NCBI GenBank assembly: GCA_002691025.1
Contig: NZGT01000088.1
Coordinates: 26,870 to 72,496, forward strand
DNA: 45,627 nt
From: Spirochaeta sp.
Lineage (GTDB): Bacteria; Myxococcota_A; UBA9160; UBA4427
Direction of reading: 5' to 3'
Shown here piece after piece: positions 2,511 through 35,813 of this stretch. The notes beneath the pieces were generated by a model that was given only the letters and a program-made list of their open reading frames with translations, ran no database searches and was not told where the DNA came from. The position numbers and the translations under genes are program-made. How positions within the stretch are numbered: the stretch's first letter is position 1; the number at the start of each line of letters is the position of its first letter.

Positions 2511-4408
<1,898 letters not shown>

Positions 4409-16560: not shown

Positions 16561-19236
16561 TCATCCCTCGGACGTCTGCCGGATGGCGTCGACCTTCTCT
16601 CGCAGCGTATCGCCGATGACCTGCGCGGCCGGCATGCCTTGCAGCGAGAAGTGGTCTCCGGGAACGGGCCTCTGCTCAAAAGGCCCCAGGATGTGACGGT
16701 CCCAGCCCAGGGTCTGGGTTCCGTAGTCGCGCAGGCTGCCCTCGGTGTAGAAGAGCACCGTCGGGATATCGGTGGTCTTCTTGCAGCGATAACGCCGGCT
16801 GATCAGCTTGTCCGACCTCTCCAGACTGGAGACACCCACCCTCTGATTCAACGCATAGATGATCGACTCAGAAAGAAACGGCAAGCGTCCTGCTTTCTGG
16901 GCCTGCCACAACGAATCCAACAGGTTTCCCCGAAGCATGGGTGACCACTCATCCAGAGGCTTTCGAAGAAGCCTGGAAATCGAGGCCGCACTGATTCCAC
17001 GAGCCTCGCCCAGCCAGTTCTTCTTGGCTTCGCTGGCCACCTCCGGAAACCCAGTATCCATGAGAGCCAGAAGCGCCGGAGGAGAACCGGCTTCGTTCAG
17101 TCTCTGAGCCACTTCGTAGGCGATCACGCCCCCGATCGAATACCCCATCAAGATATGGGGTCCTTCAGGCCGAAGGCGAAGGATCTCGGCCGCATACGCC
17201 TTGGCCATGCGGGACCAACTCACCCAGACCGGAGCCTCGCCGTAGAACCCTTGACGCTCAAGCCCGTAGAAGGGCACGTCGGAGCCCAGCGCGCGAGCGA
17301 TCTTCCTGAACCCGATGACATCCCCGAAAATCCCTGGAATACAGAATACGGCCGGCGACGATTCGCCCGCGCTCAGCGCCACCGCAAATCCATCATGACT
17401 CCCGGGGTGGCCAGCCTCGATGAGTGATGCGAGGGCTTCCACTGAAGCCGCCTCGAAAAGAACCACCGGTCGCATCTCGATCCCGAATTCTTCCTGGATC
17501 CACTGGGTCAAGGTCAGCGCAGAAAGAGAGTCTCCACCGAGATCAAAGAAGTCTTCGTCCACGCCCACATTCTCGACCTGGAGCAGGCCGGACAGATACA
17601 CCACGACTTTCTCTTCTGTCTCCGAACTCGGAGCCTTGCGCACGCCTTCGGCTTCACTGCGTTTGCGCCCCTCCATGCCAAAATGCTCGGCGAGTCCTCC
17701 TCGCAAAGGCTTCCCGGTGGCGTTGCGCGGAATATCACTTTCCTTGATGAAGATGATCTGATGCGGAACCTTGAAATGGGCCAACCGCTGAGCTGCAAAT
17801 TTCCGAAGCTCACTCTTGGTGAGCGAAGCCCCTTCACGAAGCACCACGGCGGACGCCACGTCCTCACCGAGTCGATCATCCGGGACCGCAAACGTCACGG
17901 CCGCTTCCACATCGGGATGCAGGGTCAGCTCATCATCGACACCCGCAGGCGAGATCTTCTCTCCCCCGCGGTTGATGATCTCCTTCACGCGCCCGGCCAG
18001 GTAGAGGAATCCCCTGGCGTCGAGTTCACCCAGATCCCCGGTCCGCATCCAGTCGCCCACAAAGAGTTCTGCATTCTCCTCGGGCATGTTCAGATACCCC
18101 GAGAACACATTCGGTCCTCGAATCACGACCTCGCCCACTTTCCGCGGCGACAGGACCTTGTGGCCCGGACCCAGGATCGCGATTTCCTGGCCCAATTCCT
18201 TTCCCACCACGAAGCCCACGGAGCCGGGCTGCTGCCGACCTTCCCCCAACGGGTTGGCGGTGGAAAGCCCTGCCCCTTCGCTCAGACCGTAGGCTTCGAT
18301 CAGGGGAGCTCGATAGATCTCATCGGCCTGAGCCGCGAGACTGGCCGTCCCCCCGGACCCTCCCGAAAGAATGAAGCGGACCTTCTTGGTCTCTTCCGGA
18401 AGCGGGGCCCGAGCCAATTCATCCAGGATCGCCCGATGGAAGGTCGGCGTCGCACCGAACCAGGTCGGCGCAAATTCGCGAAGGACATCGCCAAAAAGAG
18501 CGGGAGCAAAATCGAGCAATGAAACAAGGCTCCCTCCCGAGAGCAGGGGTATGAAGCCCTGATGGATACAACCAAAAACGTGGAAAAGCGGCATGATCCG
18601 GACGCAACGATCGGAAGGAGAAAGCCCATAATGAGCGGTGGTCAGCGCCACCGAAGCGCAGAGGTTCTTCTGCGTAAGCGGCACAGGCTTTGATTGCGCC
18701 GTCGTGCCGGAAGTCAGGACGATCAGGGCTACATCGTCGGACGTCGCAGAGGCAAAGCTCTCGGGCTTCGCTTCGGCGGTCGGAGCCGAATCGGATTTCC
18801 ACTCCACCGAGGAGAGACCCGCTGAACGCTCGGGTTCAGCGGTGCTCTCGAAAACGGGAATCCCGCAGGCCTGCGCGGCCGCCACCGCTGGCGAAGTCGA
18901 CCCCGCCTCCACCAGCAGGCCCCGCGCCCCAAAAGAAGCGAACTGATCCTCGAATTCGGCCTGGGTATACGCCGGGTTGAGAGGAACCGCCGTTGCAGAT
19001 ACGGCCAGTCCCATGATGAGGAATTGCTGCTCCACGGATTGAGGCATGACGATGGCCACCGCGTCGCCACGTCCAATCCCAAAGCGATTGAAGCAGGACG
19101 CAAGGGATTCCATCTCGGCCAGCAGTCGACCAAAAGAGAGGGGATCACGATCCGGAGCCAGAATGGCAGGCACATCCGGCCTCTCCTGCGCCCAATAGGA
19201 GAAACCCTCATGAAGAGTTTCGAACAAAGCACCCAT
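16561..19236 (-). CDS. NRPS-like adenylation-carrier-thioesterase (A-T-TE) protein
   Basis: 891 residues in three domains. Adenylation domain 1-~520: P-loop TSGTTAQSKPV (175-185), A-Y-G-L-S-E-G (315-321), G-R-V-K-E-I-I-N-R-G-G-E-K-I-S-P (415-430), catalytic Lys509 in N-A-T-G-K-P-L. This domain resembles the AAE3/Pcs60 (oxalyl-CoA synthetase-like) branch of acyl-CoA synthetases, not typical NRPS A domains. Carrier domain ~545-610 with phosphopantetheine Ser570 (LGGDSLSAL). Type I thioesterase ~630-890 with Ser700 (GYSIGG), Asp727 and His862 (GDHFSL). It has no condensation or reductase domain, so it probably activates an acid, holds it on the carrier and releases or dimerises it. No PPTase gene in the window. 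Start at 19236 has a weak ribosome site. Confidence 0.92.
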   Translation of the reverse strand: MGALFETLHEGFSYWAQERPDVPAILAPDRDPLSFGRLLAEMESLASCFNRFGIGRGDAVAIVMPQSVEQQFLIMGLAVSATAVPLNPAYTQAEFEDQFASFGARGLLVEAGSTSPAVAAAQACGIPVFESTAEPERSAGLSSVEWKSDSAPTAEAKPESFASATSDDVALIVLTSGTTAQSKPVPLTQKNLCASVALTTAHYGLSPSDRCVRIMPLFHVFGCIHQGFIPLLSGGSLVSLLDFAPALFGDVLREFAPTWFGATPTFHRAILDELARAPLPEETKKVRFILSGGSGGTASLAAQADEIYRAPLIEAYGLSEGAGLSTANPLGEGRQQPGSVGFVVGKELGQEIAILGPGHKVLSPRKVGEVVIRGPNVFSGYLNMPEENAELFVGDWMRTGDLGELDARGFLYLAGRVKEIINRGGEKISPAGVDDELTLHPDVEAAVTFAVPDDRLGEDVASAVVLREGASLTKSELRKFAAQRLAHFKVPHQIIFIKESDIPRNATGKPLRGGLAEHFGMEGRKRSEAEGVRKAPSSETEEKVVVYLSGLLQVENVGVDEDFFDLGGDSLSALTLTQWIQEEFGIEMRPVVLFEAASVEALASLIEAGHPGSHDGFAVALSAGESSPAVFCIPGIFGDVIGFRKIARALGSDVPFYGLERQGFYGEAPVWVSWSRMAKAYAAEILRLRPEGPHILMGYSIGGVIAYEVAQRLNEAGSPPALLALMDTGFPEVASEAKKNWLGEARGISAASISRLLRKPLDEWSPMLRGNLLDSLWQAQKAGRLPFLSESIIYALNQRVGVSSLERSDKLISRRYRCKKTTDIPTVLFYTEGSLRDYGTQTLGWDRHILGPFEQRPVPGDHFSLQGMPAAQVIGDTLREKVDAIRQTSEG

Positions 19237-19389: not shown

Positions 19390-20547
19390 TCAGCCAGCAG
19401 GACGAAGCAGCCAACGACCTGCACGAAGCGCTTCCGGATCCCCATGCACCTTCCCGGGATCATCGGCCAACTTGATGACCGGGACGCCATCGATGCTCCA
19501 CATCTTCAGGACCACATGAATGGGCTCGCTTCCTGCGAAGTCATTGGTGAAGTGGGTTCCGATACCGAAGCTCAGCCGGATCCGGCCTTTGAAATACCGC
19601 TGGATCGCGAGAGCCTTTTCGACATCCAGGCCGTCACTGAACACGATGGTTTTTGTATCGGGTCGGATGCCAATGGATTCATAATGACGAATGATGCGGT
19701 CTCCGAAAGCAAAGGGATCGCCACTGTCGTGCCGGACTCCGTCCAGGGTTCGAGCCAGAGCCGGATCGAAATCCGCCAGGAAGGCGTCCAGCCCAAAAGT
19801 GTCGGTCAGGGCGATCCCCAGACGACCTTCGTAGATTTCGATCCAGCGTTGCAGCGCACGTTGATTCGCATGAGGCAAACCCTCCAAGCCGGAGACACCC
19901 ATGATCCACTCGTGGGCCATGGTCCCGATGGCCATCAGGTCGAAGACGCGGGCAAAGTGCAGATTCGATGTGCCGGTAAAGCCGGTTTTCCCCATCGCTT
20001 GTCGAATGAAGATCTCCTGGCTTTGGGGATTCCGTCTGCGACGAGTTCCGAAATCGGCGAAGAGACATCCCCCTTGGCTCAGGGCCGTCGACTTGCCATC
20101 TGCCATCCTGGCCTGATCATCCAGGGTCCAGTTCGTATCGCAATGGATGAAATACTGTTCAGTGATGACCGCCAGCAGGGGTACTTCCCACAAGATCGTC
20201 TGGCTCCATAGGCCTCGCACACGGAGATGGAACTGCCCCTGATCGTCAATGCGGAAATCGAGCTCATCCGGATTGAAGCGGTAGTCATGGAGATAGGCGA
20301 GGAAATCAGGACGGTCCAGGACGTCCAGTCGATCCCGTATATAGGCGACCTCCTCGGCTTGCAGTCGCATCTCAGCCAGCTGGTCCAGCTGCCTTCTGAA
20401 TCCCTGAAGAAAGGCCTCGTTGTACCCACCACGCGGATCACGATCGAAAAAACGATACTCAACCTCGGCATCCGGGTAATGACGAAGCACCGCATTCATC
20501 ATCGTGAATTTATAGAGATCGTTATCGAGGATCGACTGAATGGGCAC
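19390..20547 (-). CDS. pncB: Nicotinate phosphoribosyltransferase
   Basis: 385 residues. The longer frame (to 20685) carries an unrelated Arg-rich leader; I chose GTG at 20547 because GGAG lies 6 nt upstream and the protein then starts at S-I-L-D-N-D-L-Y-K-F-T-M, the family N-terminus. Other hallmarks: R-R-x-x-Y/F-D-F-x-G-T-R-R-R, G-T-S-N-L-H-F-A, the phosphorylatable His212 in I-G-T-M-A-H-E-W (H219 in E. coli numbering) and R-H-D-S-G-D-P. It converts nicotinate plus PRPP to NaMN in NAD salvage (Preiss-Handler pathway). Divergent from the TMTC-like gene; tandem repeats lie just upstream. Confidence 0.96.
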   Translation of the reverse strand: MPIQSILDNDLYKFTMMNAVLRHYPDAEVEYRFFDRDPRGGYNEAFLQGFRRQLDQLAEMRLQAEEVAYIRDRLDVLDRPDFLAYLHDYRFNPDELDFRIDDQGQFHLRVRGLWSQTILWEVPLLAVITEQYFIHCDTNWTLDDQARMADGKSTALSQGGCLFADFGTRRRRNPQSQEIFIRQAMGKTGFTGTSNLHFARVFDLMAIGTMAHEWIMGVSGLEGLPHANQRALQRWIEIYEGRLGIALTDTFGLDAFLADFDPALARTLDGVRHDSGDPFAFGDRIIRHYESIGIRPDTKTIVFSDGLDVEKALAIQRYFKGRIRLSFGIGTHFTNDFAGSEPIHVVLKMWSIDGVPVIKLADDPGKVHGDPEALRAGRWLLRPAG

Positions 20548-20605
20548 CCAAGGCTCCGTTTTGAGGCGCGTCTGGCCCGCGCGGAGTCTAGTGGAATCCG
20601 GGAAA

Positions 20606-20633
20606 AGGCGTACCCACCTCCAGGCGTACCCAC
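20606..20633. repeat. Two 12-bp direct repeats upstream of pncB
   Basis: AGGCGTACCCAC occurs at 20606-20617 and again at 20622-20633, 16 bp start to start, in the 202-nt divergent region between pncB (start 20547) and the TPR membrane protein (start 20750). Tandem exact repeats 60-90 nt upstream of a start suggest an operator or activator site for pncB, or for both genes. I do not recognise the sequence as an NrtR or NiaR box. No gene is visible in this intergenic region. Confidence 0.45.
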
Positions 20634-20749
20634 TCAAGCCCAGAGCCGACAAGCGAACCGGAGATGATTTGCAGCCCCATGGCATTCCGAACTACTCTTT
20701 GCCGGGCCTCCCCCTTCTTGCATTCAAATGCTCGGGAAAGTCCGCAAAA

Positions 20750-34323: not shown

Positions 34324-35658
34324 TCAGGCATCGGGCGCCCAGTTGCCGTGGAAACCGAAAGGAACCCTTTCAGGTAGCTCGATGACGGCCACGGGTTCGC
34401 CCTGGAAGTCCTGCGCATCCAGGATCACTACATCTGCTCCATTCCGCCTCTTGTCGTGCACGTAGGCGAGAAGCCAACCTTCGTCTTCCCCCGCTTCGTC
34501 GTGACGAGGCACGAAAACGGGCTCCTGGAACTGCCGATGCTCGCCTTCATTGCGCTCGAGGGTCTCTCCAGTCTGCAGGTCATGCTTGAGAAGCCCCCCG
34601 TAGAGAAGCCCCTCGCCCACATGACCGCAATAGCCATACCGATAGGGCTTTCCGATCAACCGCTCGTCCATCCGCGGAAACTCCTGGCCCCGTTCATCCA
34701 GGCGGCTTTCCTTGACGGCTCCACTCCTCGGATCGATCACCCACCGATCCAGCGTGGGTGTGCCCTCATTCGGGCCCGTCATATCCGTCGCAAACATCTT
34801 GGGGTGACGCACGACATCGAGAACCACACGACCACTTGAATCCTCATAGGAGTTCAACGGATGGAAGAGGAAGCAGGGGTCCACCTCGTGCCAGGTGACA
34901 TCATCCGCCTCTCCGTCACGGGGGAGAAGACCCACCCGGGTGCCGTAATCATCGAACCATCGATAGGGAAGCGGGTATCCCTTCATCAGGAGTTCAGGAT
35001 CGAACAACACGGGCATATCGAAAACAATGAAATAATTCTCCGTGATCGAACAATCGTGGACCATGGTCTTGCCTGGAACCGGAATGGAAACCGTCTTGCG
35101 TACCTTTCCATCCGTCCCCACTACGTTGTAGTGGAGTTCATCGAGCCCTACGAAGTAGCCCACCACATGAAGCTCTCCCGTATCGGGATCCCTCTTCGGA
35201 TGAGCCGAGAAAGGACCCGGAAGGGTTCCCTCGAAATCAGATCGAGCCACGGTCTCGAGTTCATCCGTCAACTCAACCGGATTCCCACCGGCTTCGACGA
35301 TCGCGAAAGTCTTCCCAGCGTGGGAGATGATATTGGTATTCGCCCCTCCCGAACCGATTTCCGAGAAGCGGGGCCCCGGCGTTTTCGGCCCCCCCTTGAC
35401 TTCACAGACTTCATCGTCGCGCACGAAGCGGCTGCGATACTGCACGGCTTTGCCGTCCCGCAGCCAGAGCCCATGGGCCAGCCCATTGCCAACAAACCAA
35501 TGGTAGTTCGGGCCGGGTTCGGAGACCGGGTTGGGCCCGATGCGCATCAGACGACCGTTCAACTCGGGCGGGATCTGGCCTTTCACGGGCAGGTCGTGGG
35601 CTGTCGTCTCCTCGAGTACCGGTGCGTAGTTGTCTTTCAAATAGGCGCTTTCGCTCAT
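34324..35658 (-). CDS. Carotenoid cleavage oxygenase (RPE65/CCD family)
   Basis: 444 residues from the second of two adjacent ATGs (35658; the first at 35661 is only 3 nt from AGGAG). The non-heme iron site has four His residues at the usual spacing: His153 (S-A-H-P-K), His201 (V-H-D), His266 (L-F-H-P) and His437 (F-H-G-N-W). The N-terminal L-x-G-x-x-P-x-x-L-x-G-x-x-x-R-x-G-P-N-P motif is also clear. It oxidatively cleaves C=C bonds of carotenoids, apocarotenoids or stilbene-like phenols. No carotenoid biosynthesis gene is in the window apart from dxs and ispA 30 kb away. Shares no regulator gene with its neighbours. Confidence 0.93.
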   Translation of the reverse strand: MSESAYLKDNYAPVLEETTAHDLPVKGQIPPELNGRLMRIGPNPVSEPGPNYHWFVGNGLAHGLWLRDGKAVQYRSRFVRDDEVCEVKGGPKTPGPRFSEIGSGGANTNIISHAGKTFAIVEAGGNPVELTDELETVARSDFEGTLPGPFSAHPKRDPDTGELHVVGYFVGLDELHYNVVGTDGKVRKTVSIPVPGKTMVHDCSITENYFIVFDMPVLFDPELLMKGYPLPYRWFDDYGTRVGLLPRDGEADDVTWHEVDPCFLFHPLNSYEDSSGRVVLDVVRHPKMFATDMTGPNEGTPTLDRWVIDPRSGAVKESRLDERGQEFPRMDERLIGKPYRYGYCGHVGEGLLYGGLLKHDLQTGETLERNEGEHRQFQEPVFVPRHDEAGEDEGWLLAYVHDKRRNGADVVILDAQDFQGEPVAVIELPERVPFGFHGNWAPDA

Positions 35659-35813
35659 CATGCTCTCCTCTGGATCCGGGATGGGAGAGTCCCTGAACCT
35701 TGAAGGCAGACCAGGAAGCCTCTTCACGAAGCCACTCTCCCGAACTCTCACGAGGCCAACTCCCATCGGCCCTTCTGTAACTACTTGTTTCTGCTCGACT
35801 TTAACTCAAACCC

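Follow-up and report, generated by a model that had tools for sequence, protein, structure and literature searches.

A stand-alone A-T-TE protein whose adenylation domain appears to descend from oxalyl-CoA synthetase

A gene in the 45,627-nucleotide stretch of DNA analyzed here (the window) encodes one protein in which an adenylation (A) domain, a thiolation or carrier (T) domain, and a thioesterase (TE) domain follow one another. Phylogenetic trees and matches to solved structures show the A domain to be, by sequence, a descendant of oxalyl-CoA synthetase (OCS/AAE3). What appears to be new here is that an OCS-clade A domain in an A-T-TE protein has lost five residues that are invariant in OCS; as far as its residues tell, the protein is an OCS by descent and not by signature. 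Our preferred reading, to which we assign a probability of roughly 0.6, is that of an OCS-derived, single-module synthetase without a condensation (C) domain, in which a rebuilt pocket would accept a larger acid of lower polarity, the enzyme's own carrier would hold it, and the TE would release a condensed product.

Domain layout, reality, and distribution of the fusion

The gene lies on the reverse strand of the window, and its main features, together with the evidence for each, are as follows.

16561..19236, (-): A-T-TE gene, 891 aa plus stop; ORF with ATG start, Pfam domains, full-length homologue in G001 (56%)
17710..19200, (-): adenylation domain, residues 13-509, OCS/AAE3 clade; Pfam AMP-binding and AMP-binding_C, trees, PDB matches
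17710-17712, (-): catalytic Lys509 codon of the A domain; motif RNATGK
17419..17607, (-): thiolation (carrier) domain, residues 544-606; Pfam PP-binding, 57 bits
17527-17529, (-): phosphopantetheine Ser570 codon; motif LGGDS
16636..17349, (-): type I thioesterase domain, residues 630-867; Pfam Thioesterase, 88 bits
17137-17139, (-): TE residue Ser700 codon; motif GYSIGG
17056-17058, (-): TE residue Asp727 codon; residue checked
16651-16653, (-): TE residue His862 codon; residue checked

All four Pfam domains scored above their curated cutoffs, with AMP-binding (residues 13-382) at 209 bits and AMP-binding_C (residues 435-509) at 46 bits preceding PP-binding and Thioesterase, and the same scan of the 891-aa protein detected no C domain. 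These calls bear out a preliminary description of the sequence, which had proposed a stand-alone A-T-TE protein lacking a C domain and with all active sites intact; K509, S570, S700, D727, and H862 are indeed all in place within the expected motifs. A single 891-aa A-T-TE protein at 16561-19236 (-) is thus confirmed.

Another species of the same genus (G001), the sole other genome of that genus among the 90 genomes of the class that were searched, encodes the same fusion, with 56% identity over residues 3-890. The presence of a full-length homologue in a second species argues against an assembly fusion; absence of the fusion from close relatives had been named beforehand as a reason to doubt it, and it is present in G001 at full length. 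Differences between the two genes amounted to 0.35, 0.28, and 0.66 at the first, second, and third codon positions, respectively, and each of the three domains (A, T, and TE) showed its largest share of differences at the third position, the pattern that a gene maintained by selection should show. A short linker has diverged between the two proteins (30% identity over 23 residues). Given the full-length homologue and the codon-position pattern, the fusion is probably not an artefact of assembly or gene calling.

The fusion is rare and was found at full length in two species of one genus. A search of 60 genomes, including the window's own, at E <= 1e-100 returned matches in that genome, in G001 (full length), and in G055 (A domain only). 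With the whole protein at the same threshold, 4 of the 90 genomes of the class, again including its own, gave matches, two of which were full length and both of the genus, while G055 and G080 matched over the A domain only. Extending the search to the phylum at 1e-95 retrieved the same four genomes out of 377. Two further classes of the phylum, searched at 1e-90, gave matches in 1/52 and 6/317 genomes, all of them limited to the A domain, so that the A-T-TE fusion was seen in 0/52 and 0/317 genomes, counts that would miss weaker or fragmented fusions falling below the thresholds used (1e-100 to 1e-90). Seven OCS-type ORFs from these two classes end 1 to 6 residues past the match, i.e., without a carrier or TE. 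Plasmids gave 2,931 matches among 72,556 records at 1e-5, and among the 30 matches listed, only a protein from Gemmobacter aquarius extends past the A domain with an E value below 1e-50; five of the 30 were inspected, corresponding to the Gemmobacter protein, two larger NRPS genes (H2 and H12), and two stand-alone OCS-type genes (H14 and H15). Viral contigs yielded 38 pattern matches and no relative. A scan of genome contigs with the window protein as a single-sequence query, where an alignment query might reach further, returned one distant ligase (25%).

Ancestry of the adenylation domain and replacement of OCS-invariant residues

The best three PDB matches of residues 1-519 were all oxalate--CoA ligases, namely 5ie0 (5e-96), 6qjz (5e-92), and 8aff (1e-75), with alignments beginning at residues 16, 33, and 54, respectively. 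We take these three entries to be Arabidopsis and yeast enzymes. The next matches were malonyl-CoA synthetase entries, starting from 4e-53, and the best NRPS match of the whole A-T-TE protein was EntF, at 2e-40.

A tree of 36 rows placed the A domains of the window protein, G001, and Gemmobacter in one clade with the three solved OCS enzymes and four bacterial stand-alone OCS-type proteins (support 100/99), and the six NRPS-type A domains formed a separate clade (100/100). When seven more OCS-type proteins of the phylum were included in a tree of 26 rows, the OCS clade comprised 17 rows with the same support of 100/99, many other branches in both trees being long and weak. An annotated malonyl-CoA synthase from Neorhizobium paired with a protein of the window's own genome (C47; 100/99) outside the OCS clade, and the window A domain did not group with it in the 36-row tree. 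Long-branch warnings concerned two pairs of outside rows in the 36-row tree and, in the 26-row tree, the genome's own C112 on the NRPS side; both trees were built with those rows in, and in our opinion they do not touch the OCS clade. The earlier placement of the A domain on an AAE3/OCS-like branch, and not among amino-acid A domains, therefore holds in both trees, and the clustering of residues 1-520 with NRPS A domains, which would have spoken against it, was not observed with the six included here.

Within this clade, the window protein departs from OCS at five positions, whose codons are listed below as read from the alignment.

18715..18717, (-): Leu174 codon; His in 14/14 OCS-type sequences; outside the pocket blocks
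18574..18576, (-): Phe221 codon; His in 14/14 OCS-type sequences
18367..18369, (-): Leu290 codon; Arg in 14/14 OCS-type sequences
18358..18360, (-): Gly293 codon; Ser in 14/14 OCS-type sequences
18268..18270, (-): Gly323 codon; His in 14/14 OCS-type sequences

At columns 174/221/290/293/323, the 14 OCS-type rows, of which three are entries named oxalate--CoA ligase or oxalyl-CoA synthetase and 11 count as OCS-type from their sequence, all read H/H/R/S/H, and both the window and G001 proteins read L/F/L/G/G. None of the five residues of the His/His/Arg/Ser/His set (0/5) is kept in the window protein. These five residues presumably bind oxalate in OCS, as their strict conservation and the Arabidopsis structure suggest. 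The replacement of polar OCS residues by small or hydrophobic ones argues for a less polar, larger acid, and the loss of invariant residues means that "oxalyl-CoA-synthetase-like" probably describes the ancestry of the domain and not its substrate.

Changes at OCS-invariant columns are concentrated around the acyl pocket, as delimited by blocks that follow the NRPS specificity regions and were set after the alignment had been viewed, with column 174 falling outside them. In the window protein, 9/17 invariant columns were changed within these blocks versus 13/82 elsewhere (p=0.002, one-sided Fisher), with 69/82 columns kept outside the blocks. The G001 protein gave 9/17 versus 11/82 (p=0.0009, one-sided Fisher), although the two proteins belong to the same genus and are not independent in these statistics. 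As a control, each OCS row was compared with the other 13, which revealed no block changes in 12 rows, one in L051, and two in yeast Pcs60; the latter has 13 changes outside the blocks, equal to the window protein, but only 2 inside.

The Gemmobacter aquarius plasmid protein (WP_108437355.1, 873 aa, L015:14905-17523, +) resembles the window protein in having an OCS-clade A domain, a PP-binding domain, and a C-terminal thioesterase-like region. The two share 34.8% identity over residues 20-733 and 38.8% over the A domain. It differs in its TE, for which the match is just over the cutoff (28.3 versus 26.4 bits) and a Cys (GNCKG) takes the place of the Ser. At the five columns it reads L/G/R/A/P and has therefore lost four of the five OCS residues; its enrichment of changes in the pocket blocks is not significant (5/17 versus 15/82, p=0.23, one-sided Fisher). 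At a distance of 8-10 kb upstream of the Gemmobacter gene, the opposite strand carries sulfotransferase and P450 genes. In the best trees, the A domains of the three A-T-TE proteins fall on one side of a branch, without support (79/54 and 53/76), so that one common fusion and two separate fusions are both possible. Tentatively, and at somewhat worse than even odds, we suggest that OCS may have given rise, perhaps repeatedly (in the genus and in Gemmobacter), to a self-contained A-T-TE class, that the fusion would have gone together with the loss of OCS-invariant residues, and that this class would have a small-molecule product of its own.

Genomic setting

Regarding the source of the T-TE portion, no near relative beyond G001 (53%) was found in the window's own genome or in the listed plasmid records. 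The closest comparisons within the genome were with the NRPS C127 (36% over 212 residues) and the A-T-TE protein C112 (35% over 199 residues), those with plasmids ranged from 28 to 31% among the 25 listed of 836 records, and a T-TE tree of ten rows gave no resolution. C112 is itself a second stand-alone A-T-TE protein (L026:1319-4105, +, G000:C112, an ORF of 929 aa); its A domain falls among those of NRPSs and carries Ser, not Asp, at the first code position. The same draft genome also contains large NRPS-type genes on C127 and C76, recognized by similarity only, with ORFs of 1560, 2160, 1296, and 2126 aa.

A nicotinate phosphoribosyltransferase (NAPRT) gene lies upstream on the same strand (ORF 19390-20685), 153 bases from the A-T-TE gene, and an epimerase, an enoyl-CoA hydratase, and an acyl-CoA ligase are encoded downstream, facing it. 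Between 16400 and 19500, no promoter-like site was found and terminator-like sites were not in excess over shuffles. The NAPRT had no match in G001 at 1e-30, and the epimerase is not beside the G001 gene, its best G001 match (44%) being on another contig. Since the G001 contig ends just past the A-T-TE gene, the comparison of neighborhoods covers the upstream side, where ORFs of at least 200 aa (C86, from base 4,000 onward) had only the A-T-TE gene and generic SDR and ligase families in common with the window. The shared SDR (39% identity) is separated from the A-T-TE gene by about 11.5 kb in the window and was not accepted as synteny. No conserved gene cluster was thus found between the window neighbors and the upstream side in G001, and the neighboring genes offered no clue to the substrate, which leaves the A-T-TE gene an orphan for now. 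A recent foreign origin was likewise rejected: codon usage is ordinary, with the lowest divergence of 27 window ORFs, a measure on which long ORFs score low by length.

Two other observations concern the surroundings of these genes. The window encodes a homologue of RPE65-family carotenoid oxygenases at 34324-35766 (-). Elsewhere, a stand-alone OCS-type gene is followed by an overlapping 2-dehydropantoate-2-reductase-like gene in Rhodobacteraceae SC52 (annotated) and in G055 (as read from the ORFs), at L016:4983-7492 and L013:3116-5694, a possible OCS gene pair.

Proposed activity and relation to known enzymes

According to the preferred reading, the A domain with its rebuilt acyl pocket would adenylate a less polar, larger carboxylic acid, possibly an aryl acid or a medium alkyl or hydroxy acid, and the acyl group would then pass to the phosphopantetheine on Ser570 of the protein's own carrier instead of to CoA. 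PPTase-family genes (PF01648) were found above the cutoff in both the window's genome and G001, so the carrier could be primed. From there, the acyl group would move to Ser700 of the TE, and an ester, lactone, or dimer might leave the enzyme as the condensed product, following the mode of release that has been proposed for A-T-TE "NRPS-like" enzymes. We therefore expect the substrate to be some acid other than oxalate or an amino acid, held by the carrier of the protein itself until the TE releases it. The use of this carrier instead of CoA, the class of substrate, and condensation instead of hydrolysis are steps that we infer, release being the weakest of them. The preliminary description had proposed that a carboxylic acid may be loaded and a hydrolyzed, cyclized, or dimerized product set free in an orphan small-molecule pathway, and any of these products may be the actual one.

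The protein has a carrier domain and a type I TE in cis in common with canonical NRPS modules, as judged from Pfam, and is unlike them in lacking a C domain, in having an A domain outside the NRPS clade, and in having no Asp at code position 1. It shares with OCS/AAE3/Pcs60 (5ie0, 6qjz, 8aff) its ancestry, overall sequence, catalytic Lys, and adenylation motifs, and is unlike them in its fused carrier and thioesterase and in the replacement of the five invariant polar residues. Fungi are a well-known source of A-T-TE "NRPS-like" enzymes, and bacteria have them too, RalA and EchA among them (PMC10316625, PMC9047271, PMC5523082). In the characterized fungal enzymes, aromatic keto acids are the substrates of the A domain, and the TE condenses two of them (PMC9047271). 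As described there, the alpha-keto-acid synthetases (fungal quinone synthetases, RalA, EchA) resemble the window protein in domain order, lack of a C domain, and a TE placed after one carrier. The excerpt of another source reports two orphan single-module A-T-TE proteins in Pseudomonas, "NRPS 3" and "NRPS 5", the latter with a predicted threonine specificity and the former with no known one, and it states no link to OCS (PMC8719888). A literature screen, mostly of titles and the starts of abstracts, found no report of an OCS-derived A-T-TE protein, which is no proof that there is none in print.

The order that the window protein shares with these synthetases, A-T-TE without a C domain, could also mean that it is itself an alpha-keto (aryl-pyruvate) synthetase of the kind represented by RalA, EchA, and the fungal quinone and furanone synthetases, and that its TE would condense two aryl-pyruvates. 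Depending on whether it is located by motif or with MAFFT, the first NRPS code position of the window protein is His219 or Val220, neither of which is Asp, and Val at this position is reported to mark keto-acid activators (PMC10316625). However, Val or Ile occupies the Val220 column in 7/7 OCS rows of the same MAFFT alignment, so that Val220 does not separate keto-acid activators from OCS. The window A domain also belongs to the OCS branch in our trees, and the sole aminotransferase that Pfam detected in 30 window ORFs, a DegT/DnrJ/EryC1-family protein, is encoded about 14 kb away. We consider a keto-acid synthetase unlikely.

Alternatively, the TE may only hydrolyze, making the protein an editing or degradative device or, with the TE as a proofreader, an in trans loading partner for the NRPSs of the genome. 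The ordinary Ser-Asp-His residues of the TE and the NRPS-type genes elsewhere in the genome (C76 and C127) agree with this, and sequence cannot tell a hydrolyzing TE from a condensing one. Against it, a TE that follows a single T domain in cis is the order of releasing modules, and no NRPS gene was seen beside the A-T-TE gene; overall, we regard a purely hydrolytic role as improbable. That the protein is still an OCS or another oxalate user, with an oxalyl-carrier that would be used or hydrolyzed by the fused TE, fits its place in the OCS clade, its best PDB matches, and the fact that no separate OCS was seen in its own genome (85% complete), where the next best match pairs with malonyl-CoA synthase, but is very unlikely with 5/5 polar residues replaced and most columns elsewhere kept.

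We retain the OCS-derived, condensing synthetase as the preferred reading, with a protein that probably makes a small molecule. At 2.7 kb and with a single protein product, the gene is small enough for a search for its substrate and product that uses expression of this gene and no other, and the five named positions provide a small and direct test of what changed. The characterized A-T-TE enzymes described in the cited sources take aromatic keto acids. An OCS-based A-T-TE enzyme would add a new route by which a CoA ligase of primary metabolism becomes a natural-product enzyme.
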